DNA from: Lachnospiraceae bacterium
GTDB lineage: Bacteria > Bacillota > Clostridia > Lachnospirales > Lachnospiraceae
Assembly (NCBI GenBank): GCA_017503735.1
Contig: JAFVSN010000050.1
Coordinates: 1-64,000 of the forward strand
Direction: 5' to 3'
DNA length: 64,000 nucleotides
A program made the position numbers and the translations under genes. Below are positions 8,342 through 47,978 of the stretch, piece after piece (position 1 is the stretch's first letter; every line of letters begins with the position of its first letter). The notes beneath the pieces are model-generated. The model was not told the DNA's origin and did no database searches. It saw only the letters and a program-made list of their open reading frames with translations.

Positions 8342-10735
8342 ATGACAGATCAGGATCGTATTTCAAAAATCGAGCGTTCCATCGCCGATTTGGAACAAAT
8401 ATTGCACGAACTAAAAACTGAAGTAAAAGATATCAAACAGGCAGAGCCCTCTCCTCTTCCTGAGACGGTTTCTGCTCTGTCGGAGAATGTTCCGACACAG
8501 TCGGCACAAGCAGAACAGCCGATGCAAGCGGAACAAGTAACACAAGCGGCCATGGCAGAACCTTCTGCCACGTCTTCTTCGGATGCGCAAAAACCGGCAA
8601 AGCATTCTGCCACGCCTTCTCCGGACACACAAAAACCGTCAGCACCGTCTGCTACTCCGAAGAAAAAGCGCACCTCTTCCTTCGAGGAGAATTTAGGCGG
8701 AAAAGTCATGGGCATTGTGGCTGCCGTTTTAGTGTTCGTCGGGTTGTTCCTTTTCGGAACGCTTTTGTATGAGCGCTTGGATGACATTGCCCGTATTGCT
8801 TCCATTTATATTGTAAGCTTTCTTTTACTGGGTGCGGGACTTTTCTTTGAGAGAAAGCATAAAAGCTGGTTTACCACCTCTCTGATTGGGTGCGGATTCG
8901 GTGCCGTTTATCTTTCATTATTTATATCCTCGGTTTATTTTGAATTGTTTTCAACAGAGGTGCTTTATCTTCTGCTCTTTTTCTGGCTCGTGGGAATCGG
9001 TGTTTATGTATTCCGCAGAAGTTCCTATGTTGTAGCCCTGCTTGGCCAGACCGGAATCGCCTTTTCCGTAATTTTCGGCGGTATCTTTGCGGAGACCAAA
9101 GGAGAGTTTACCTTCCTTTGTATCTTCTTTGTCCTGCTCTCCCTTCTTTATTTGTGGGTTGTATTGGGACGTTTTCTTCCGCAGACAAAATCAAAAGCTT
9201 ATCCGTGGATTCACCTTGTTGCTGCGGGACTTAATCTTATCGAACTTTGGAGTCTGGCCTTATGCTATGATTCCTTATTCGGTGAATACGGTTCTATCGG
9301 CGGTCGGAACATAACCGCGGGACTCCTGTTATGTTTCTATTGCTTATTGCTTCCGCTCTTCTTTTTATTACGAGGACGGATTTTACTGGGGCTTCCTGTT
9401 TTCCCTCGTTTTTCGGAACCCCGCAAAATCACAAAGGAAACCTTTCCGGTATATAAAACAGGATGGATCTCCATTCTCTTTTTCACCTTATTACAGCTTG
9501 TTTCCTGGGTCGTTTTTTCCGGAATTTTCGGCACTCTTTTTGAAGGCGATATTCCTCACGGATTACTTTTACTTACCGGACTGCTTCTTTCTTTCCTGAT
9601 TACGGAGTTGTTCGGTGCAACCGGCACAGAAGGCAGAGGTTCCTGTATCGTAACGGTTGTGGCTGTTACCTTCACCCTGCTCATCTTTGATTTTCCGGAC
9701 TTTGTACACGCCATCATTACCATCCTCTTTTGGGCGGTTACTTCTCTTGTCGGAATGTTCGGTTCCGAATGTCCGGTACGATCCGTCTTAAATCCTGCCA
9801 CAAAAAAGTGGGAGTTCCTTTGCGAACAAAAAAGCGGACGGTGCTTTGAAAAATTCACCTCCTGCGTGTACGGCTTTTTGCTTTTGTTTTCTTATCATTA
9901 TAACTCCGCACCGGAAATGCTCTGGCTCTCCGGTATTGTAAGCCTCCTTTTCTTTACAGGATTGTTTATCTTCTTATATCGGAAAGGACGCACCCAACGG
10001 TTCGGGGATGCCTGGAAAAATGAGCTCTATCTGTTTGCACTCATCCACGTCTTTTGGATTCTTGCCTATGCATCGGAGTTCTTCTTTACGGAAGAAATTT
10101 ACGGAATGACTTTGACTCTTTCCGTACTTGTTCTGTGCAACAGCATTGCTTTTTACTCCGGATTCTGCCAAAAGCTTGCATTCCCGGTCAAAAAGGACAC
10201 GGGCGCGCTTCTCATTGTGCGTCTTGTTCATACCTCCCTTTGGATTTGGGGACTTGCCCTGCTCCATAGCGGTGCTATGGAAGACCACCCGCTCCTCTGT
10301 GTCTGGATGATTCTTTTGACCTTGTTCTTATGCGGAAGCGGCATGTATGCACAGTATAAAACATATCAAAAACATACCGGTCTGGGCATTTACTTCGGTT
10401 TACGCGTCACGCTGTATACCATTGCCGTTATGACTGCCTTTGACAATCTGGAAGGATATGTCATCAGTTGTGTCCTGCTTTGTCTTGCTATTGTTGCGGT
10501 ACTTTCCGGTTTTCCGCTTCGCCTGGCTCCGCTTCGCATCTACGGCCTATGCCTGGCCATGCTTGCGGTAATTAAGCTTATGATGATTGATGTGGAACAC
10601 GATAATTCCATGGAAACCGTGCTTTGTTTCCTGGGTGCCGGAATTCTTTGCTTTGCCATTAACTTTATCTACAACCATGTGAAAAAACGTTTTCAACCGG
10701 ACAAAAATGAGTCCATAGAAAATACGTCAAAATAG
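8342..10735 (+). CDS. DUF2339 family polytopic membrane protein
   Basis: The 797-residue product starts with a short coiled coil (residues 1-35, ISKIERSIADLEQILHELK), then an Ala/Pro/Gln/Thr-rich linker to about 115 with repeated AEQ/MQAEQ and SATPSPDTQKPS units, then about 25 hydrophobic segments to residue 775 and a basic tail. The junction ENLGGKVMGIVAAVLVFVG, where the first membrane helix begins, is typical of DUF2339 proteins. The family has no established biochemical role. An AAGGGGGA ribosome binding site precedes the ATG, and the CotH-like gene follows after 26 bp, so the two are probably cotranscribed. Confidence 0.8.
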   Translation: MTDQDRISKIERSIADLEQILHELKTEVKDIKQAEPSPLPETVSALSENVPTQSAQAEQPMQAEQVTQAAMAEPSATSSSDAQKPAKHSATPSPDTQKPSAPSATPKKKRTSSFEENLGGKVMGIVAAVLVFVGLFLFGTLLYERLDDIARIASIYIVSFLLLGAGLFFERKHKSWFTTSLIGCGFGAVYLSLFISSVYFELFSTEVLYLLLFFWLVGIGVYVFRRSSYVVALLGQTGIAFSVIFGGIFAETKGEFTFLCIFFVLLSLLYLWVVLGRFLPQTKSKAYPWIHLVAAGLNLIELWSLALCYDSLFGEYGSIGGRNITAGLLLCFYCLLLPLFFLLRGRILLGLPVFPRFSEPRKITKETFPVYKTGWISILFFTLLQLVSWVVFSGIFGTLFEGDIPHGLLLLTGLLLSFLITELFGATGTEGRGSCIVTVVAVTFTLLIFDFPDFVHAIITILFWAVTSLVGMFGSECPVRSVLNPATKKWEFLCEQKSGRCFEKFTSCVYGFLLLFSYHYNSAPEMLWLSGIVSLLFFTGLFIFLYRKGRTQRFGDAWKNELYLFALIHVFWILAYASEFFFTEEIYGMTLTLSVLVLCNSIAFYSGFCQKLAFPVKKDTGALLIVRLVHTSLWIWGLALLHSGAMEDHPLLCVWMILLTLFLCGSGMYAQYKTYQKHTGLGIYFGLRVTLYTIAVMTAFDNLEGYVISCVLLCLAIVAVLSGFPLRLAPLRIYGLCLAMLAVIKLMMIDVEHDNSMETVLCFLGAGILCFAINFIYNHVKKRFQPDKNESIENTSK

Positions 10736-28172: not shown

Positions 28173-28799
28173 TTATCCCTGTATCGTTTCCTGTTTTTTT
28201 CTTCGTATGAGACAGAAAATACTTCCAATCATCAATCCGCCGAAAAAGCCGCCGAAATGGGCGTCATGTCCTACGCCGGTATCAAAAATACTACCGAACA
28301 ACAGGAAAAACACCGCCAAAAGCAGCTGCTTTTTCTCCTGTACGGACAACTGCTTTCGCCGGAACAAAATCGCTGCAATAAAAGCACCTGTCAAACCGTA
28401 CACGGCACCGGATGCCCCGGCGCAAAACACAAACCTTCCGGAATCACTCCGGATAACACCATTATACAGGATAGATGCTCCGTCCGCAATAAGCCCTGTG
28501 GCAAAATACAAAAACAAAAAGCGAATCCGTCCGAAAAACGGCTCCAACATCCTTCCTATTACATAGAGCATCATCATATTACACATCAAATGGTCTATCC
28601 CGAAATGATAAAACATAGAGGTGATAAGTCTCCAATATTCCTTTCCCTCAACAACCAGAACAGGATTCAGTGCCATATAATACACAATTTCTTCCTGCTT
28701 TCGGTAAAAAAACAAATCAAACACAAGAAAAAGAATGATATTTACCGCCACAATAGCGATTGTAGCCAAAGGAAGTTTTGTAATTTTCCCTCTCTCCAT
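28173..28799 (-). CDS. Rhomboid family intramembrane serine protease
   Basis: A 208-residue membrane protein with six predicted TM helices. The catalytic Ser is in GASGAVYGLTGAF and the catalytic His in HDAHFGGFFGG; the family's WR-like loop motif appears as EYWRLITSMFYHFGIDHLMCN. Rhomboids cut other membrane proteins within the bilayer; the substrate is not evident, although the adjacent Tad operon supplies many single-pass membrane proteins. Own promoter at 28856-28884. Confidence 0.93.
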   Translation of the reverse strand: MERGKITKLPLATIAIVAVNIILFLVFDLFFYRKQEEIVYYMALNPVLVVEGKEYWRLITSMFYHFGIDHLMCNMMMLYVIGRMLEPFFGRIRFLFLYFATGLIADGASILYNGVIRSDSGRFVFCAGASGAVYGLTGAFIAAILFRRKQLSVQEKKQLLLAVFFLLFGSIFDTGVGHDAHFGGFFGGLMIGSIFCLIRRKKQETIQG

Positions 28800-40936: not shown

Positions 40937-43672
40937 ATGAAAAAATCTTTTTCCGGCACGCACTTTTTAGCAACGGGCATTTTATTATGTTCGCTCCTTC
41001 TCGCCGGTTGTAACAACGACCCGGCTGTCAATACCGATCTTCCTTCGGATCCTACACCGGAAGTTACCCAAGAGGGTTCCCCTGAGGCCACCCCAACCGA
41101 AACTCCGGCAACTACTCCGACGGACATCCCGGAAACTATCCCGACCGAGACTCCGACAGCTACTCCAACCGAGGCTCCGACAGTTACTCCAACCGAGGTT
41201 CCGGCGGTTACTCCAACCGAGGCTCCGGTGGTCACTCCGACTGCTACTCCGACCAAAGCTCCGGTAGTCACTCCGACACAAAAACCGGACGACGGCTATG
41301 CAGACAGCATCCAAGTTACCATTGATGCAAACGGTCTGGCAAGTTGGAAGCCTGTTCGTAATGCAGTTTCCTATGAATACGATATATGCCACTACGAAGA
41401 CGGTGCCTTAATCGGCAGCGGCGAAGTATTCTTTACTACCGATCCTTTTGTACAATTGGCGCATGGTCAATTTCTGCAAGTTAAGGCTGTTTTCAAAAAC
41501 GGTGAAATCAGCCCAACTGTAGAAAGTGAAGTTTTTAAACTGGCAAGCATGAGACAGGTCAGCTATCCGGATAATCTTGTAGAAGGCAGCCTTGTTTCCG
41601 AAAACGGAACCCTTTCTTTTGCCTTGCAAACACCGGACTCCCGGATCATCCGTATGCTCGGTCACAAATGTCGCGTGGAAACCGACGGCACAATTATCAT
41701 CTCTCCGGGCGGAGATTTGTTTACAGCGGACGAAGTCGGAAAGATTTCCAGTTTTTCCACACAGATGAATGATGATGCGGAGTTTTCTTTTTCCTACGGT
41801 TACACCTTTAAAAAGGACGGAACCGTTACCTCCTGGAAAAAGGACACCGCCAACTATGGTTATTTTGGACAGCCGCATAACATCTCTACCGAAGATTACG
41901 CTCCGAATTACCTGTGTTATGCTCCCAAAGAAGGGGAGGGAACCGTTTCTATTTCCTCTTTTACCATAAATTACACACCGGGACGTACCGGCTTGCAAAG
42001 TTTGAGTTTTAACAGCGGATTTTTCCCTGAATTTTTACCGGGAGACCCATACAACAAATCTCTTGAAGCAGCCTGGGACCCGGACAAAGGCATTTTAGAT
42101 TTCTACTTACTTGCGCTTCCGGATTCCCTGACCGCAACACCGGAAGATTACCAGTACATTTACGGACCGTCAAATTATGTCACCGGTAATCTCAAAGACG
42201 GCAACGGCAAAATCGTAAGCAAGGATGCTCCGTTACCGGAAGGTGCTACATTAGAGATTTCCCTCGGTGATTACACCTATGATGTTCCGCTGGTACAAGA
42301 ACAATACATCGGTGCAAAGACCTTCCACGAATCACTTCCGTCGGTTTATCCGAAAGCTACCGGAGACTTAAATGTACTGGTAGTTCCGATTTGCTGGGCT
42401 GACCAGAAAAGTCGTGCAACCGAAAAGAACATGGACTTCTTAAAAAGGACCCTGGGTACCGTTTTAGATGTGAACGGCAAAGCAACCGAATATTCCGTAA
42501 GCAATGACGGTAAATTCTCTCTGAGTGAGTATTACAGCATATCTTCCTACGGCAAGTTGAATATACAATCCTTTGTCACCGACTGGTACAATTCCACCGA
42601 CGCCTATGAAGATGTTCGGGAACACTCCTTAGAACAGGATGACACAGCCCAAATTACCGAATGGGTAAGAAAATCCTACCCTAATCTGGACTGGTCCCTT
42701 TATGACAAGGACGGAAACGGCCTGATCGATTTGGTAATCTTTATCAATACCGGTGATATGGGCGATTTCGACAGTTTCAGCCCGATGAGTAACGGTGGCG
42801 CATATGCCCGTTTTCACAGTTATACCGGTGATTTGGCCGGCACAAAGAAGGCCCCGAATGTAAACAATTTCCTCAGCACCAATATGGGTATGCTTTACAG
42901 TAATTATCGGATCGGAGATGAAGCAAATTATTTCCCGAATGTGCTGATTCACGAGTTTGCCCACTGTCTCGGCTTAGTAGACTACTATGATGTAAATTAC
43001 TCCGGCATTGATGCGGTAGGCGGCTACGATATGCAATCCGCCAACTACGGTGACTGGAATGTCTACTCCAAATACGGTGTGGGCTGGCTTACTCCTACCG
43101 TGATTACGGAAGATTCCTTTGGCGGAAAAGACAGCATTGACGTTACCATTCAGTCCTCCGCATTAAATAACAGTGCCCTTGTGATTCCGGCTGCCGGCGA
43201 ATCCCCGGACGGTTCCCCGTTCGGCGAGTACATTATGGTAGATTTGTTTACACCGGAAGGTGTTCACGAAACGGATGCCGCACGATACCATTTACAGGAT
43301 ACTGTGGGCGTGCGTATGTACCATGTACATGCACAGCAAGTAAAGCGCGTTCTTACCGGTTCCGACGGAAAGACCTACACCATCGGTACGATTCAGATCG
43401 GAAATAATCATGCTTACATGGCACAGAACTACGGATTTTACCATATTGAGCTTATTCAGGCAAGCGGTGATAACACCTTTACGGATTTAAACAATCTGGA
43501 TACCATTATCTCTAAGGATGATTTCTTTGAAGCAGGAGATATTTTTACCGCCGAAAACTACGACGAGTTCTTATGCAAAGGAAAGATGGATAACGGCGCA
43601 GAGTTCGGCTACAGCATTGAGGTAGTTTCGGTAACGAAAGACGGCGCAACCTTGCGGATTACGAAGAAATAA
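40937..43672 (+). CDS. Surface lipoprotein with Pro/Thr stalk and M6-like metalloprotease domain
   Basis: A 911-residue secreted protein anchored by a lipoprotein signal (LLLAGC, Cys25). Residues 35-115 are a Thr/Pro/Glu stalk of TPTEAP-type repeats. A beta-rich region (120-470) precedes a metallopeptidase domain (about 475-740) with LNVLVVPICWADQ, the zinc motif HEFAHCLGLVDYYD near 670 and the downstream GGYDMQSANYGDWN; these are M6 (immune inhibitor A-like) features. DKDGNGLID near 595 resembles a calcium-binding loop. It would cut extracellular proteins at the cell surface. AAAGGAGG precedes the ATG. Confidence 0.87.
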   Translation: MKKSFSGTHFLATGILLCSLLLAGCNNDPAVNTDLPSDPTPEVTQEGSPEATPTETPATTPTDIPETIPTETPTATPTEAPTVTPTEVPAVTPTEAPVVTPTATPTKAPVVTPTQKPDDGYADSIQVTIDANGLASWKPVRNAVSYEYDICHYEDGALIGSGEVFFTTDPFVQLAHGQFLQVKAVFKNGEISPTVESEVFKLASMRQVSYPDNLVEGSLVSENGTLSFALQTPDSRIIRMLGHKCRVETDGTIIISPGGDLFTADEVGKISSFSTQMNDDAEFSFSYGYTFKKDGTVTSWKKDTANYGYFGQPHNISTEDYAPNYLCYAPKEGEGTVSISSFTINYTPGRTGLQSLSFNSGFFPEFLPGDPYNKSLEAAWDPDKGILDFYLLALPDSLTATPEDYQYIYGPSNYVTGNLKDGNGKIVSKDAPLPEGATLEISLGDYTYDVPLVQEQYIGAKTFHESLPSVYPKATGDLNVLVVPICWADQKSRATEKNMDFLKRTLGTVLDVNGKATEYSVSNDGKFSLSEYYSISSYGKLNIQSFVTDWYNSTDAYEDVREHSLEQDDTAQITEWVRKSYPNLDWSLYDKDGNGLIDLVIFINTGDMGDFDSFSPMSNGGAYARFHSYTGDLAGTKKAPNVNNFLSTNMGMLYSNYRIGDEANYFPNVLIHEFAHCLGLVDYYDVNYSGIDAVGGYDMQSANYGDWNVYSKYGVGWLTPTVITEDSFGGKDSIDVTIQSSALNNSALVIPAAGESPDGSPFGEYIMVDLFTPEGVHETDAARYHLQDTVGVRMYHVHAQQVKRVLTGSDGKTYTIGTIQIGNNHAYMAQNYGFYHIELIQASGDNTFTDLNNLDTIISKDDFFEAGDIFTAENYDEFLCKGKMDNGAEFGYSIEVVSVTKDGATLRITKK

Positions 43673-43790: not shown

Positions 43791-43820
43791 AAAACCTTTT
43801 TCATTTTTCCCGGAACTATA
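43791..43820 (+). promoter_or_regulatory. ECF-type promoter of the CAP-domain lipoprotein gene
   Basis: AAAACCTTTTT (from 43791) and CGGAACTATA (43811-43820), with 20 bp between the starts of the two elements. The same two elements at the same distance occur at 47250-47279, and the sequence downstream (ACAGAAGGG, AAGTCCCC, AAAGGAGAA) is also shared. The AACC -35 element is typical of ECF sigma factors. A gene for such a factor lies between the two promoters. Confidence 0.72.
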
Positions 43821-43873: not shown

Positions 43874-44791
43874 ATGAAGAAAAAAACTCTTTTGCCGTTT
43901 GTTCTTTTCTTACTACTGACTGTACCGGCAGGCGGTTGTGGTTCTGCTTCAGAACCGGTAGCCACACCTAAACCTGCCATGACGGAAACAACTGTCACAC
44001 CGATTCCGGAATCTACTACGCCCCCGGCACCGGAGGCGACGGCAACTCCTGTTCCGACAGCAACCCCGACTCCGGAACCCACCGCGACTCCGATTCCTAC
44101 GAGCACCCCAACCCCGGAACCCACTGCAACTCCGGTTCCTACGAGCACCCCAACTCCGGAACCCACCGCGACTCCGATTCCTACGAGTACCCCGACTCCG
44201 GAACCTACCGCGACTCCGATTCCTACGAGCACCCCGACTCCGGAACCCACCGCGACTCCGATTCCTACGAGCACCCCAACTCCGGAACCCACTGCAACTC
44301 CGGTTCCGAAGCCCACCGCGACTCCGAAACCCACCGCAACTCCGACTCCGAAGCCCACCATAACACCGACCTACGAATCAATTAACACTGAAATCGAGGA
44401 TAATTATTTTGATATTCCGTTACCCGGCTCCTTTGATAAAGAGCTCGCCAAGGAAGCGTTTATCCTGACGAATGAGAAAAGAAAAGAACATGGCCTACCG
44501 GAACTGATCTGGGATGGTTGTTTGTACGAGTCCGCAAGAGTAAGGGCAGCGGAATCAAGTTTATACTTTTCTCATACCAGACTTGACGGAACCGACTGGT
44601 ATACCATCTATGACAAGTTACACGGTGAAAATCTGGCATGTAATTATGACTCTGCCAAATCCGTTGTAAACGGCTGGATGAATTCCGAAGATCACAAAAC
44701 CAACATTTTAAACAGCAATTTTAAAAGAGGCTCCATAGCAGTTTTCAAAACCATAACGGGCTGGTATTATTGCCAGCACTTCGGATATTAA
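43874..44791 (+). CDS. CAP/SCP-domain lipoprotein with Pro/Thr tandem-repeat stalk
   Basis: A 305-residue lipoprotein (signal ending VPAGGC, Cys22). Residues 30-165 are a stalk of Thr/Pro repeats, six units of 14 residues ([15 protein letters not shown]) followed by [12 protein letters not shown]. Residues 180-305 are a CAP/SCP domain: [20 protein letters not shown], the His in [19 protein letters not shown], and [17 protein letters not shown] domains in bacteria are secreted, of varied and mostly unknown function. Expressed from the ECF-type promoter at 43791-43820; AAAGGAG precedes the ATG. Confidence 0.88.
44054..44305 (+). repeat. Six tandem 42-bp repeats encoding the CAP protein stalk
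   Basis: Six in-frame 42-bp units, differing at a few third positions (ACCGCG/ACTGCA, AGCACC/AGTACC) and at the last codon (Ile or Val). Near identity over 252 bp makes copy-number change by slippage or recombination likely, which would vary the stalk length. Confidence 0.92.
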
Positions 44792-44836: not shown

Positions 44837-44866
44837 TTGACGACATTACCGGCAAAGTAGTACTAT
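44837..44866 (+). promoter_or_regulatory. Sigma-A promoter of the sigma factor gene, inside a dyad
   Basis: TTGACG (44837-44842), 18-bp spacer, TACTAT (44861-44866). The -35 and spacer lie within a dyad: CTTTGCCG (about 44807) with CGGCAAAG (about 44850), and inside it GTTGTCA with TGACGAC. No T-run follows, so it could be an operator. Confidence 0.55.
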
Positions 44867-44906: not shown

Positions 44907-47207
44907 ATGGCTGTAGATAAAGAACTTTTAGAGGGCATTTCCCTCATGACACAAGGAAAAGAAGAAGGTTTTAACCTTCTTTACTCCCATACATATAATT
45001 TCGTATATGCCCGTGCCCGGGCGGCTACAAAAACCGAGACCGACGCACAGGACCTGACTCAGGAGACCTTTCTCCAAGCCTATAAGGGAATTGCTTCTTT
45101 GGAAGACGCAAACAATGTCTATGCCTGGTTAGGAGGTATTGTGTATCGACAAGGAGCAAAATTTTATAATAAAACCAAAAAAGAACTTTTATTAAATGAA
45201 GACCAGGACTATATTTTTGACGAAGTAGAGGCTACGGATTTAGCGTCTCTTCCGGAAGAAAGCGCCCAGTTGAAAGCCACTTCGGATGTTGTTATGAATA
45301 TGATTGAAGAGCTTCCGGAGGCACAACGTTCCGCTATCCTGTCCTTCTACTATGACCACATGAAAATAGAAGAAATCGCTAACGCTTTTGATTGTTCCGT
45401 AAACACCATCAAAAGCCGCTTAAACTACGCAAAAAAATTCTTAAAATCCAAAATAGAGGAACATCAGGCCCGCTACAGCTACAAACTCTACTCCCTCACT
45501 CCGGGAATTCTGTATTTTGCGTTACGCGGACTTCTGGGTTCCGACAACTACACCATGGCACCGGATACCGCCGAAAAAGTTTACCGCGTCGCTTGTGAAT
45601 CCCTCGGTTTTACCGCATCTGCAGTCACGGCCGGAACTGCGGCTACCGCAGCAGCTTCCACCGCCTCTTCCGAGGCTGTAACCGTTGCCGCCACTGCCGG
45701 GACACAATCCTTAGCATCCGCAAGCACCGCAACGGCAACGGTTGCCAAAAGTACCGGGATTTTCGCAAAGTTTGCTGCCTTTTCCGCCGCAAAAAAAGTA
45801 GCTACCGTAGCTATTACCGTTTCCTTGCTGGGTGGTGGGGCAACCACTGCGGTTCTCCTTAATAACCAGACACCTACACCGCCTGCGGTTACCGCACCGG
45901 CGGAAACAGCCACTCCGGTCCCGACACCTCCCGCTCCTACAGCGGAAGCGACTCCGACCGTTACGGTAGCCGTGGTGGAGGAACCGCTCCCAACGGAAGC
46001 TCCGACACCGACCCTTACCCCTACACCTTGGCCTATCTACTTCAGAGAGTTATCGTTTACACCGTTTTCCAGAGAACGCTACGACATATATGCGAGTAAC
46101 TATGACATGGATTACTATTACCTTGACAATTTCAGCGTTCCGGCAAGTACAGCAGAAGATGAAAATTTCCGCTATCAAATTTTCAGCGGATATGCTTCCG
46201 TCTGTTATAAGGGAGGTCTGGGTACAAAAGTAGAATTCCCGTCCGAATACAATGGTGTTCCGATTCGGGCAATCTTCAAAAGCTGGTCGGAATCTCCGGA
46301 AAACACCTTTATAAACGAAGCGATTGCTCAGGTTGAAGAAGTAATCATTCCGGATACGGTATGGTGTTTGGGTAATAACTGCTTTGAAAAATTTACGGCG
46401 TTAAAAAAGGTTACCTTATCGGATACTCTTCTGACAATTAACACCTATGCCTTTACGGAATGCGCTTCTCTGCAGGAACTGGACATTCCGAAAAGCGTCC
46501 GTTTTATAGGTAATCAATTCATTTCCCATTGTCCGGGCGTACAAAATGTCTATGTTCACAGCGAAGACATCGAAACATACCCGAGTACATTTGCTTTCAG
46601 TCCGATTACAGAGGCTACCTATATTCCGCTAGAAGATAGTGCTCCGACTATAGACGACATTACTCCGGAGCCGGAAATACCGGCAGAAATACCGGACTCC
46701 GTAGACAATCCGGATTGGAGTTTTATTGACGGAACCCTTACAATTAAAAGCGGAATGCAAATGGTGGATTACACCAAGGAATATTCACCGTGGATCGCCT
46801 ACCGCGACCGGATTGAGGTTCTTATCATCGAAGACGGTGTTTCCCATATCGGAAACTATGCATTTTTCTTCTGTGATTACCTAAAAGAAGTTTACATCCC
46901 GGGCAGCGTTAAGGATATTGGAGGATATGCCTTCGCATACTGTCGGCGCATTGAAAAACTGGAGCTGGGTGAAGGTGTGGAAGTTATCGGAAATGCCGCT
47001 TTTTACGAAACACTTTCCCTAACCGAAGTAATCCTTCCTTCCACATTAAAACGAATACAGCTTCAGTCTTTCGAAAGAGCACAAAGACTGACGAACATAA
47101 CTTTTCCGGAGGGACTGGAATCCATTTCCTACGGCGCTTTTCATTACACTCCGGAAGCCACCAGCAAAAAAGCCTACGAGCTCTACAAACAACTCGGGGA
47201 TAACTAA
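44907..47207 (+). CDS. ECF sigma factor fused to a TM segment and extracellular BspA-like leucine-rich repeats
   Basis: A 766-residue protein. Residues 20-95 are sigma region 2 (FNLLYSHTYNFVYARARAAT, DAQDLTQETFLQAYKGI); 125-185 are region 4 (ELPEAQRSAILSFYYDHMKI with HTH NAFDCSVNTIKSRL). An Ala/Thr/Ser-rich stretch (230-290) leads to one TM helix near 296-316 (KVATVAITVSLLGGGATTAV), then a Pro/Thr linker (315-370) and BspA-type LRR_5 repeats (for example VEEVIIPDTVWCLGNNCFEK and FTALKKVTLSDTLLTINTYA) to the C-terminus, with a break near 590-615. The sigma part should be cytoplasmic and the repeats outside, so one chain could couple an outside signal to transcription. Neighbouring lipoprotein genes carry ECF-type promoters. 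Confidence 0.85.
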   Translation: MAVDKELLEGISLMTQGKEEGFNLLYSHTYNFVYARARAATKTETDAQDLTQETFLQAYKGIASLEDANNVYAWLGGIVYRQGAKFYNKTKKELLLNEDQDYIFDEVEATDLASLPEESAQLKATSDVVMNMIEELPEAQRSAILSFYYDHMKIEEIANAFDCSVNTIKSRLNYAKKFLKSKIEEHQARYSYKLYSLTPGILYFALRGLLGSDNYTMAPDTAEKVYRVACESLGFTASAVTAGTAATAAASTASSEAVTVAATAGTQSLASASTATATVAKSTGIFAKFAAFSAAKKVATVAITVSLLGGGATTAVLLNNQTPTPPAVTAPAETATPVPTPPAPTAEATPTVTVAVVEEPLPTEAPTPTLTPTPWPIYFRELSFTPFSRERYDIYASNYDMDYYYLDNFSVPASTAEDENFRYQIFSGYASVCYKGGLGTKVEFPSEYNGVPIRAIFKSWSESPENTFINEAIAQVEEVIIPDTVWCLGNNCFEKFTALKKVTLSDTLLTINTYAFTECASLQELDIPKSVRFIGNQFISHCPGVQNVYVHSEDIETYPSTFAFSPITEATYIPLEDSAPTIDDITPEPEIPAEIPDSVDNPDWSFIDGTLTIKSGMQMVDYTKEYSPWIAYRDRIEVLIIEDGVSHIGNYAFFFCDYLKEVYIPGSVKDIGGYAFAYCRRIEKLELGEGVEVIGNAAFYETLSLTEVILPSTLKRIQLQSFERAQRLTNITFPEGLESISYGAFHYTPEATSKKAYELYKQLGDN

Positions 47208-47279: not shown

Positions 47280-47333
47280 TCACAGAAGGGATAAAAAAGT
47301 CCCCCAAAAAACATACAAAAAGGAGAAATGATT

Positions 47334-47978
47334 ATGAAAAAAACTACACTTATTTTCGCAACGATGATTGCAGCAATGGTAACCTTAACCGCATGCGGAG
47401 GCAACAAAGCGGAAACAACGGGAAAAGAGAACCGTAACCCGGAAATAACCGAAGAAAGAGAAGATAGCAAGACAGAGAAAACCAAAGAAGACAAAAACAG
47501 TAAAATCAAAACGGTCTCGGAAGATGAAATCGTTGTCCGGGTCGGAGATGTGGAAATTCCGATCACCTCCACCTGGGGCGATCTGATGACTATCGCTTCT
47601 GAACAGGGATGGGCCATTGATACCTCCCTTATCCCGGATGAAGAAGCACAGAAGTTCAGCAAAAAGGGAACGATTCAAACTCCACAGGGAGAGCTTCTTG
47701 TTTCTCTGATGGCAAATGCCGATAAAACCGCAGCTGAAATAGAATACATTGCCTTGTCTCCGTTCTACATGGACTCCGATGATGCGGATATCCTTGGCAT
47801 CAAGCCTGGTACCTCGTTAAAAAAAGTCGGAAAGACCTTTGAGTTAATCGAAGAAGATGGCGACAATTATTTCTACAAAGTAGACGAATTCGTCACTTTA
47901 AAAATCAGTTTGGACACCTACGAGGACAAAAATACGGTAAATATTATTCGTACCAAGTACTACAATAGAGAAGAGTAA
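47334..47978 (+). CDS. Small lipoprotein of unknown function, probable ECF target
   Basis: A 214-residue lipoprotein (signal ending VTLTAC, Cys21) with a charged Lys/Glu/Thr linker (25-60) and a C-terminal domain of about 150 residues (VRVGDVEIPITSTWGDLMTI, DILGIKPGTSLKKVGKTFEL) that I do not recognise; the second phrase, with GIKPGTSxxxVxKxFG-like spacing, resembles repeated small lipoproteins of Clostridia. The start at 47334 is eight bases after AAGGAG; an in-frame ATG at 47328 is too close to it. Confidence 0.75.
   Translation: MKKTTLIFATMIAAMVTLTACGGNKAETTGKENRNPEITEEREDSKTEKTKEDKNSKIKTVSEDEIVVRVGDVEIPITSTWGDLMTIASEQGWAIDTSLIPDEEAQKFSKKGTIQTPQGELLVSLMANADKTAAEIEYIALSPFYMDSDDADILGIKPGTSLKKVGKTFELIEEDGDNYFYKVDEFVTLKISLDTYEDKNTVNIIRTKYYNREE

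Follow-up and report, generated by a model that had tools for sequence, protein, structure and literature searches.

Several extracytoplasmic function (ECF) sigma factors are already known to carry a membrane part in the same chain. The ECF52 protein SCO4117 of Streptomyces coelicolor combines an ECF sigma domain, a zinc finger, a transmembrane (TM) helix, a Pro-rich part and a carbohydrate-binding domain in one polypeptide, and positive autoregulation has been suggested for it (PMC5826349, PMC8999054); its group is said to be exclusive to Actinobacteria (PMC5826349). IutY of Pseudomonas putida (ECF243) joins a sigma factor to a membrane anti-sigma part, and its activation depends on proteolysis in which Prc and RseP take part (PMC8999054). 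RsgI of Clostridium thermocellum has an intracellular sigma-binding part, one TM helix, a trans-wall region and divergent sensor domains that bind carbohydrates, and it is cut by RseP (PMC12203970). Here we describe a one-chain ECF sigma factor with a leucine-rich-repeat (LRR) ectodomain, encoded at 44907..47207 in a 64,000-nucleotide stretch (the window) of contig JAFVSN010000050.1 from a Lachnospiraceae bacterium (assembly GCA_017503735.1), a member of a group that lives in the gut.

This protein resembles ECF52, together with ECF48 and ECF53, in that sigma domain, TM helix, Pro-rich part and ectodomain share one chain. Unlike SCO4117, it contains no Pfam zinc finger, and only 2 of 75 family proteins have a C..C pair in their cytosolic linker; its ectodomain is of the LRR_5 type rather than carbohydrate-binding, and the relatives retrieved are Clostridia or unplaced Firmicutes, not Actinobacteria. 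IutY shares the fusion of sigma to a membrane part, but its anti-sigma part is FecR-like, a family with no Pfam match in the window's protein and none among the NCBIfam matches listed for it (25 of 71). Where divergent sensor domains are concerned, RsgI comes closest, although sigma factor and sensor are separate proteins in SigI/RsgI and parts of one open reading frame (ORF) here. Sigma-I is not known as an ECF factor. The ECF41 and ECF56 types (SigJ, SigG1), with their SnoaL-like extension, likewise carry a C-terminal addition to an ECF factor, and SigG1 aligns with our model over 148 residues at 3.7 A; the excerpts of PMC8999054 describe no TM helix or ectodomain for them.

Set beside the known one-chain ECF factors, this family has no zinc-finger domain and joins exchanged ectodomains to a very local regulon. 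The family is apparently undescribed in the open-licence PMC excerpts, and it may already hold a group number in the 2021 ECF re-classification, which lies outside that coverage. A first-pass annotation had called the system little described; within those excerpts this stands for the family, while the one-chain TM principle is familiar from ECF52 and IutY (PMC8999054, PMC5826349).

The interpretation we favor, and consider fairly probable, is a self-inhibited, membrane-tethered ECF sigma factor that is freed by proteolysis and drives its own gene and nearby surface-protein genes. The N-terminal sigma domain would be kept at the inner membrane face by its own TM helix, and a two-helix segment directly behind region 4 would hold it inactive in place of a separate anti-sigma factor. 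Ligand binding by the exchangeable ectodomain (LRRs here), or loss of that ectodomain, would act as the signal that leads to cleavage outside or within the TM helix. The freed sigma domain would then bind core polymerase and direct transcription at TAAAAC(C/T)-N15-GG(A/T)ACT promoters. Its output would be very small: the surface lipoproteins beside the gene (the CAP-domain protein and the protein encoded at 47328), probably a further lipoprotein encoded at a distant place in the genome, and also the sigma factor's own gene, through its own promoter in many relatives or through read-through from promoter P1 here. The sequences establish the architecture, the family, the shared promoters with their locations and the exchange of ectodomains, whereas use of those promoters by this sigma factor, cis-inhibition, release by proteolysis and the kind of signal are inferred.

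Domain searches define the chain. Both regions that characterize an ECF (group IV) sigma factor are present, Sigma70_r2 with a family E-value of 3e-8 and Sigma70_r4_2 with 2e-12 (Pfam), and the NCBIfam model TIGR02937 (sigma70-ECF) scores 73.9 bits against a cut-off of 42.9. Behind them follow, in order, a short cytosolic segment, a low-complexity linker, the one hydrophobic helix found by hydropathy, a Pro/Thr stalk and BspA-type LRRs; LRR_5 (E 1.9e-43) is the only Pfam match in the ectodomain. Pfam, NCBIfam and hydropathy thus confirm the one-chain architecture proposed in the first-pass annotation, including a sigma domain attached to the membrane by a helix of the same chain. Lys297, directly N-terminal of this helix, is nearly invariant in the family alignment (A4), and the Lys/Arg count on the N-side equals or exceeds that on the C-side in 62 of 74 relatives. 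AlphaFold2 (AF2) models residues 246-322 with a predicted local distance difference test (pLDDT) score below 50; Ala, Gly, Ser, Thr and Val make up a fraction of 0.73 of the linker versus 0.31 of the sigma part, and the linker has a median length of 54 aa in the family.

Genome contigs scanned with a 10-sequence profile yielded relatives, of which the best 80 of at least 551 confirmed loci were kept; the set is thus a selected one, ranked by resemblance to a query in which the linker was included. Their titles name Lachnospiraceae, Oscillospiraceae, other Clostridia and a few unplaced Firmicutes. An untruncated sigma domain, TM helix and long C-terminal part occur in 74 of the 80 loci. Of the other six, five are truncated where the contig stops, and in L043 no helix passes the TM threshold. 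The concern that the ORF might contain an assembly join is rejected, since the same layout recurs across these related loci. The window's own genome holds 12 further matches to the query, 10 of them in open frames of 173-267 aa, and its two long paralogues (L007/L034, 519 aa; L010/L035, 435 aa) show no helix above the TM threshold.

At the sequence level, a 45-residue segment behind sigma region 4 marks the family. The profile A5, built from 75 rows running from the end of that region onward and covering residues 173-216 here, was run against 200 genomes of the same taxonomic family (at least 90% complete, the window's own included), some of which may overlap the genomes behind the profile. 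It gave 29 matches, spread over 23 genomes. All 29 lie in open frames of 342-1146 aa, and 28 of these frames have at least 447 aa; a canonical ECF factor has about 160-200 aa. In a phylum-wide sample of 398 genomes, 17 of them listed as the same class or nearer, A5 matched two at E 1e-5: the genome that holds the window and a second one from its taxonomic family.

The sigma part itself is well preserved, with a mean column identity of 39% over 72 sequences and invariant residues Q52, W74, P116, L136, Q140, T167 and K169-L172; ectodomain columns reach 8% over 77 sequences. These values bear on the idea that the protein works mainly at the surface and carries a degenerate, non-working sigma part. 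Sigma activity is predicted from sequence, which leaves room for that idea, yet the contrast in conservation, together with the co-variation of promoter type and sigma clade described below, makes it very improbable.

Promoter patterns may connect the sigma factor to its surroundings. The starts of both genes flanking the sigma gene share the element TAAAACCTTTTT-N9-CGGAACTATAT(A/C)ACAGAA, and the strict core AAACCTTTTN{9,14}GGAACTATA occurs at exactly two sites in the 3.08-Mb genome, P1 and P2 (control 0). The promoter-like elements that had been noted at 43791 and 47250 are present, and the exact pattern is found at those two places alone genome-wide. A looser core returns the same two sites without mismatch, and its one-mismatch sites (16, against 28 for reversed control patterns) were rejected as background, with the exception of C50:72600. 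This third site, on another contig, carries the whole extended element and precedes a 649-aa lipoprotein-type gene; it was kept for these two features after the site had been seen, and the extended pattern was written to fit it along with P1 and P2. No fourth site of the extended pattern lies within three mismatches in the genome (control 0). The consensus TAAAACY-N15-GGWACT reads as an ECF-type promoter that the window's sigma factor would use. Because no terminator-like site is found on the + strand between 44791 and 44907, P1 may also read through the CAP gene into the sigma gene, giving feedback.

The 649-aa protein under the third promoter (L135:2662-4608, contig C50) has a lipoprotein-type start, a Pro/Thr stalk and Lipoprotein_Ltp repeats (4.3e-21). 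Ltp proteins have a known link to phage exclusion, so this one may act against phages at the cell surface.

The same promoter type accompanies close relatives. In the genomes of 12 of them, TAAAACY-N15-GGWACTWAT has 17 exact sites in nine genomes (control 1), and all 17 share the strand of the sigma gene, either 72-152 bp upstream of its start or 5-333 bp past its stop. Locus L055 contributes five of the 17 as tandem copies, and the Butyrivibrio loci L045 and L046 are near-duplicates. Downstream sites in nine loci precede genes whose products are secreted or lipoprotein-like by eye in seven (L039, L045, L046, L051, L055, L060, L086), a NERD protein in L044 and a short DUF5688-like ORF below the family cut-off in L038. 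The L055 copies, of the GGTAC form and at about 9539-9837, stand 66-68 bp apart between the sigma gene and the gene for a 778-aa secreted-type protein.

The GGWAC motif was first spotted by eye in some loci, and a dyad search was then repeated unsupervised, without the motif. Upstream of close loci (24 of 26, two near-copies left out), the top dyad was AAAC-N18-TACT, in 9 of 24 against 0.07 expected. Upstream of the other loci (47 of 54, seven near-copies left out), it was AAAC-N18-GTCT, in 17 of 47 against 0.3 expected, so that a second subclade can be recognized at the sequence level by the same -35 element and a different -10 element (TGTCT). Over 81 loci, near-copies included, GGWAC precedes the sigma gene in 16 (0.49 expected) and follows it in 10 (0.6 expected); for TGTC the counts are 17 upstream (0.41 expected) and 4 downstream (0.5 expected). 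On a maximum-likelihood sigma tree with a midpoint root and moderate split support (88/60), the 19 GGWAC rows and the 19 TGTC rows occupy opposite halves without exception; L113, which matches both motifs, is placed among 43 rows with none. The -10 type thus follows the sigma tree, as expected if each sigma factor reads the promoter beside it, and motif location and this co-variation would fit recognition of these ECF-type promoters.

In 16 genomes of the TGTC subclade, the pattern gives 27 sites versus 12 for the control: 13 are no more than 400 bp from a retrieved sigma gene and on its strand, another three are at most 1.6 kb away, and the remaining 11 are at other places. Either the regulon of this subclade is wider or the pattern is noisier. 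These locations also bear on a different mode of action, in which the sigma factor is never released and a transmembrane conformational change exposes the tethered domain to polymerase, like membrane-bound one-component regulators. A tethered sigma factor would reach mainly DNA near its own gene, which would explain a tiny regulon at the locus; it would fit the placement of all 17 exact GGWAC-type sites at the sigma locus, a flexible linker could let the domain reach DNA, and no cleavage site has been found. The third site in the window's genome lies on another contig, however, 11 of the 27 TGTC sites lie away from any retrieved sigma gene, and IutY, itself a one-chain ECF factor, is cut (PMC8999054). 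We regard permanent tethering as unlikely.

Further features accompany TGTC sites. A small ORF of 39-56 codons lies between promoter and sigma gene in all 17 upstream-motif loci under a loose search; 14 of these ORFs (L063, L066, L071, L073, L077, L082, L085, L087, L088, L090, L091, L094, L103, L108) show by eye a ..WFIRLVKKDM..-like pattern, and eight overlap the sigma start by 4 nt. Their product is a possible small partner; the 115 bases between the CAP and sigma genes of the window are too short for such an ORF unless it overlaps. In L170, L176, L178 and L180, TGTC-type sites distant from the sigma start precede ORFs that begin with a CxxC...CxxC zinc-ribbon-like stretch, the L170 site 1.55 kb upstream of the sigma start and the other three not near a fetched sigma gene.

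How the sigma domain might be held inactive was approached through structure models. AF2 predicts two extra helices behind sigma region 4 with pLDDT 76-85, and the predicted TM-score (pTM) is 0.58 with them versus 0.47 without. With the helices, Foldseek TMt values are 0.68-0.69 to RsiW-bound SigW and 0.62 to CnrY-bound CnrH. AF2 was set aside as proof of cis-inhibition: after a sigma-only control, what is left is the pTM difference and a somewhat better fit to RsiW-bound SigW. As for release, the window encodes a rhomboid protease (28212-28643, - strand), as the first-pass annotation had pointed out, and the genome encodes two rhomboids and an RseP-type M50 site-2 protease (196.6 bits).

Several observations weigh against the self-inhibited, proteolytically released sigma factor. 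The sigma-only control is also compact (TMt 0.59-0.61 to RsiW-bound SigW, 0.61 to CnrY-bound CnrH), and SigE-RseA and AlgU-MucA fit less well than SigW or CnrH with or without the helices, so the modeled structures lend cis-inhibition weak support. No cleavage site was identified, a Gly-Gly pair in or beside the TM helix occurs in only 48 of 75 proteins, and the RseP-type M50 and rhomboid families are both matched in 14 of 14 control genomes. On the promoter side, the ECF motif is absent from the 300 bases before the window's sigma gene, three of the 12 relatives' genomes (L037, L038, L040) have no exact site and slightly deviating elements, any of the three motifs tried lies near the sigma gene in only 40 of 81 loci, and only 13 of the 27 TGTC sites are found within 400 bp of a retrieved sigma gene.

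The structural results also touch on control by an unlinked anti-sigma factor or another partner, with the segment behind region 4 as merely a membrane-proximal spacer. The sigma-only model is nearly as compact, cis-inhibition is a prediction, and the conserved small ORF of the second subclade suggests that extra partners may exist. Against this, the segment is conserved in the family, with all 29 matches in long open frames, and neither gene adjoining the sigma gene matches an anti-sigma family in Pfam or NCBIfam, as had been claimed. Such a partner therefore seems quite unlikely, and the self-inhibited sigma factor remains the preferred account.

Comparison with the two nearest orthologues, L037 and L038, indicates that the ectodomain has been exchanged. 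In L038, the sigma part is 76% identical to that of the window over 235 residues, while the ectodomain carries Transglut_core (1e-11) and BLAST aligns no part of it with the ectodomain of the window's protein at E 10; phosphorylase-family and M6-type protease genes lie upstream in the same order as in the window, with other genes between. In L037, the sigma part is 79% identical over 235 residues, and the ectodomain carries SBP_bac_1 (1.3e-10) and LRR_5, with 124 residues matching the ectodomain of the window's protein at 32%. In 30-residue blocks of both alignments, identity is 53-93% for residues 1-240 and at most 44% behind residue 330. Pairs without ectodomain similarity (E 1e-3) number 0 of 12 at sigma identities of at least 90%, 6 of 21 at 75-90% and 48 of 138 at 60-75%. 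On one contig of Lachnospiraceae bacterium NC2004, two such genes (L058, L059) have sigma parts 84% identical and ectodomains 24% identical over 255 residues.

Among 77 ectodomains, LRR_5 occurs in 6, Big_2 in 3 and RCC1-type repeats in 2, nine families occur in one member each, and at least 47 have no family match at 0.001. The LRRs named in the first-pass annotation are not the defining sensor: they are one ectodomain type among several, unrelated to each other, that this chassis carries. If ectodomain and target bound one polymer, they would be expected to be similar; this idea was rejected, as no match below E 0.04 was found between ectodomain and the gene behind its promoter in nine loci (for L038, a 957-aa gene behind a weaker site was used, not the 105-aa ORF; in L051 the contig stops within the gene).

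A tentative and rather less probable extension is that the family forms a self-reporting surface-protein platform, with a conserved sigma-TM chassis, ectodomains swapped at the locus and an output that is nearly confined to itself and its surface neighbors. Loss or engagement of the ectodomain would free the sigma factor and the same surface protein would be remade, as in a modular sense-and-replace cassette of Clostridia. If the proposed mechanism is true, a group of Clostridia would link an ECF sigma factor to the cell exterior by a route distinct from both paired anti-sigmas and zinc-finger fusions. With sensor, switch and output promoters at one locus and natural sensor swaps, the family would be suited to studying how an ectodomain is coupled to sigma release.

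Table 1. Features at and around the one-chain sigma gene (window coordinates).
Feature	Position	Strand	Basis
ECF-type promoter P1, TAAAACCTTTTT-N9-CGGAACTATATAACAGAA	43790..43828	+	
CAP-domain (YkwD-like) protein, lipoprotein-type start (by eye), Pro/Thr stalk; likely target	43874..44791	+	Pfam CAP 8.8e-14
Sigma-A-like promoter just before the sigma gene, TTGACG-N18-TACTAT	44837..44866	+	weak: 9 sites vs 5.6 expected in shuffles
One-chain ECF sigma factor, TM, LRR ectodomain protein, 766 aa	44907..47207	+	Pfam, NCBIfam, layout in 74/80 relatives
Sigma-70 region 2, residues 25-82	44979..45152	+	Pfam PF04542
Sigma-70 region 4, residues 129-179	45291..45443	+	Pfam PF08281
Family-marking segment behind sigma-4 and predicted helices 199-211, 219-233; candidate cis-inhibitory element	45423..45605	+	A5 matches, AF2
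Low-complexity linker, within residues 246-297, predicted disordered	45642..45797	+	pLDDT, composition
Single TM helix, residues 300-318, N-terminus inside	45804..45860	+	hydropathy, K297, K/R bias
Pro/Thr-rich stalk	45876..46025	+	sequence
Best LRR_5 (BspA-type) stretch of ectodomain, residues 635-748	46809..47150	+	Pfam PF13306
ECF-type promoter P2, TAAAACCTTTTT-N9-CGGAACTATATCACAGAA	47249..47287	+	
Unknown-family protein, lipoprotein-type start (by eye); likely target	47328..47978	+	without Pfam family

The sigma gene is preceded by the CAP-domain gene and followed by the 47328..47978 gene, beyond which a helix-turn-helix/tetratricopeptide-repeat protein is encoded on the opposite strand. 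Further upstream, 40937-43672 encodes an M6-type metalloprotease with a lipoprotein-type start and a Pro/Thr stalk, which also lies near the sigma gene in L038; its M6-type NCBIfam domain scores 1.3e-19, below the model's cut-off, and the protein is a possible sheddase. L038 also carries a second ECF sigma gene, of ordinary size (Sigma70_r2, r4), 4 kb before its one-chain sigma gene; behind this second gene comes a 431-aa ORF that has a hydrophobic stretch and no Pfam match. The two, at 2221-4070 of L038, are likely a classical sigma/anti-sigma pair.
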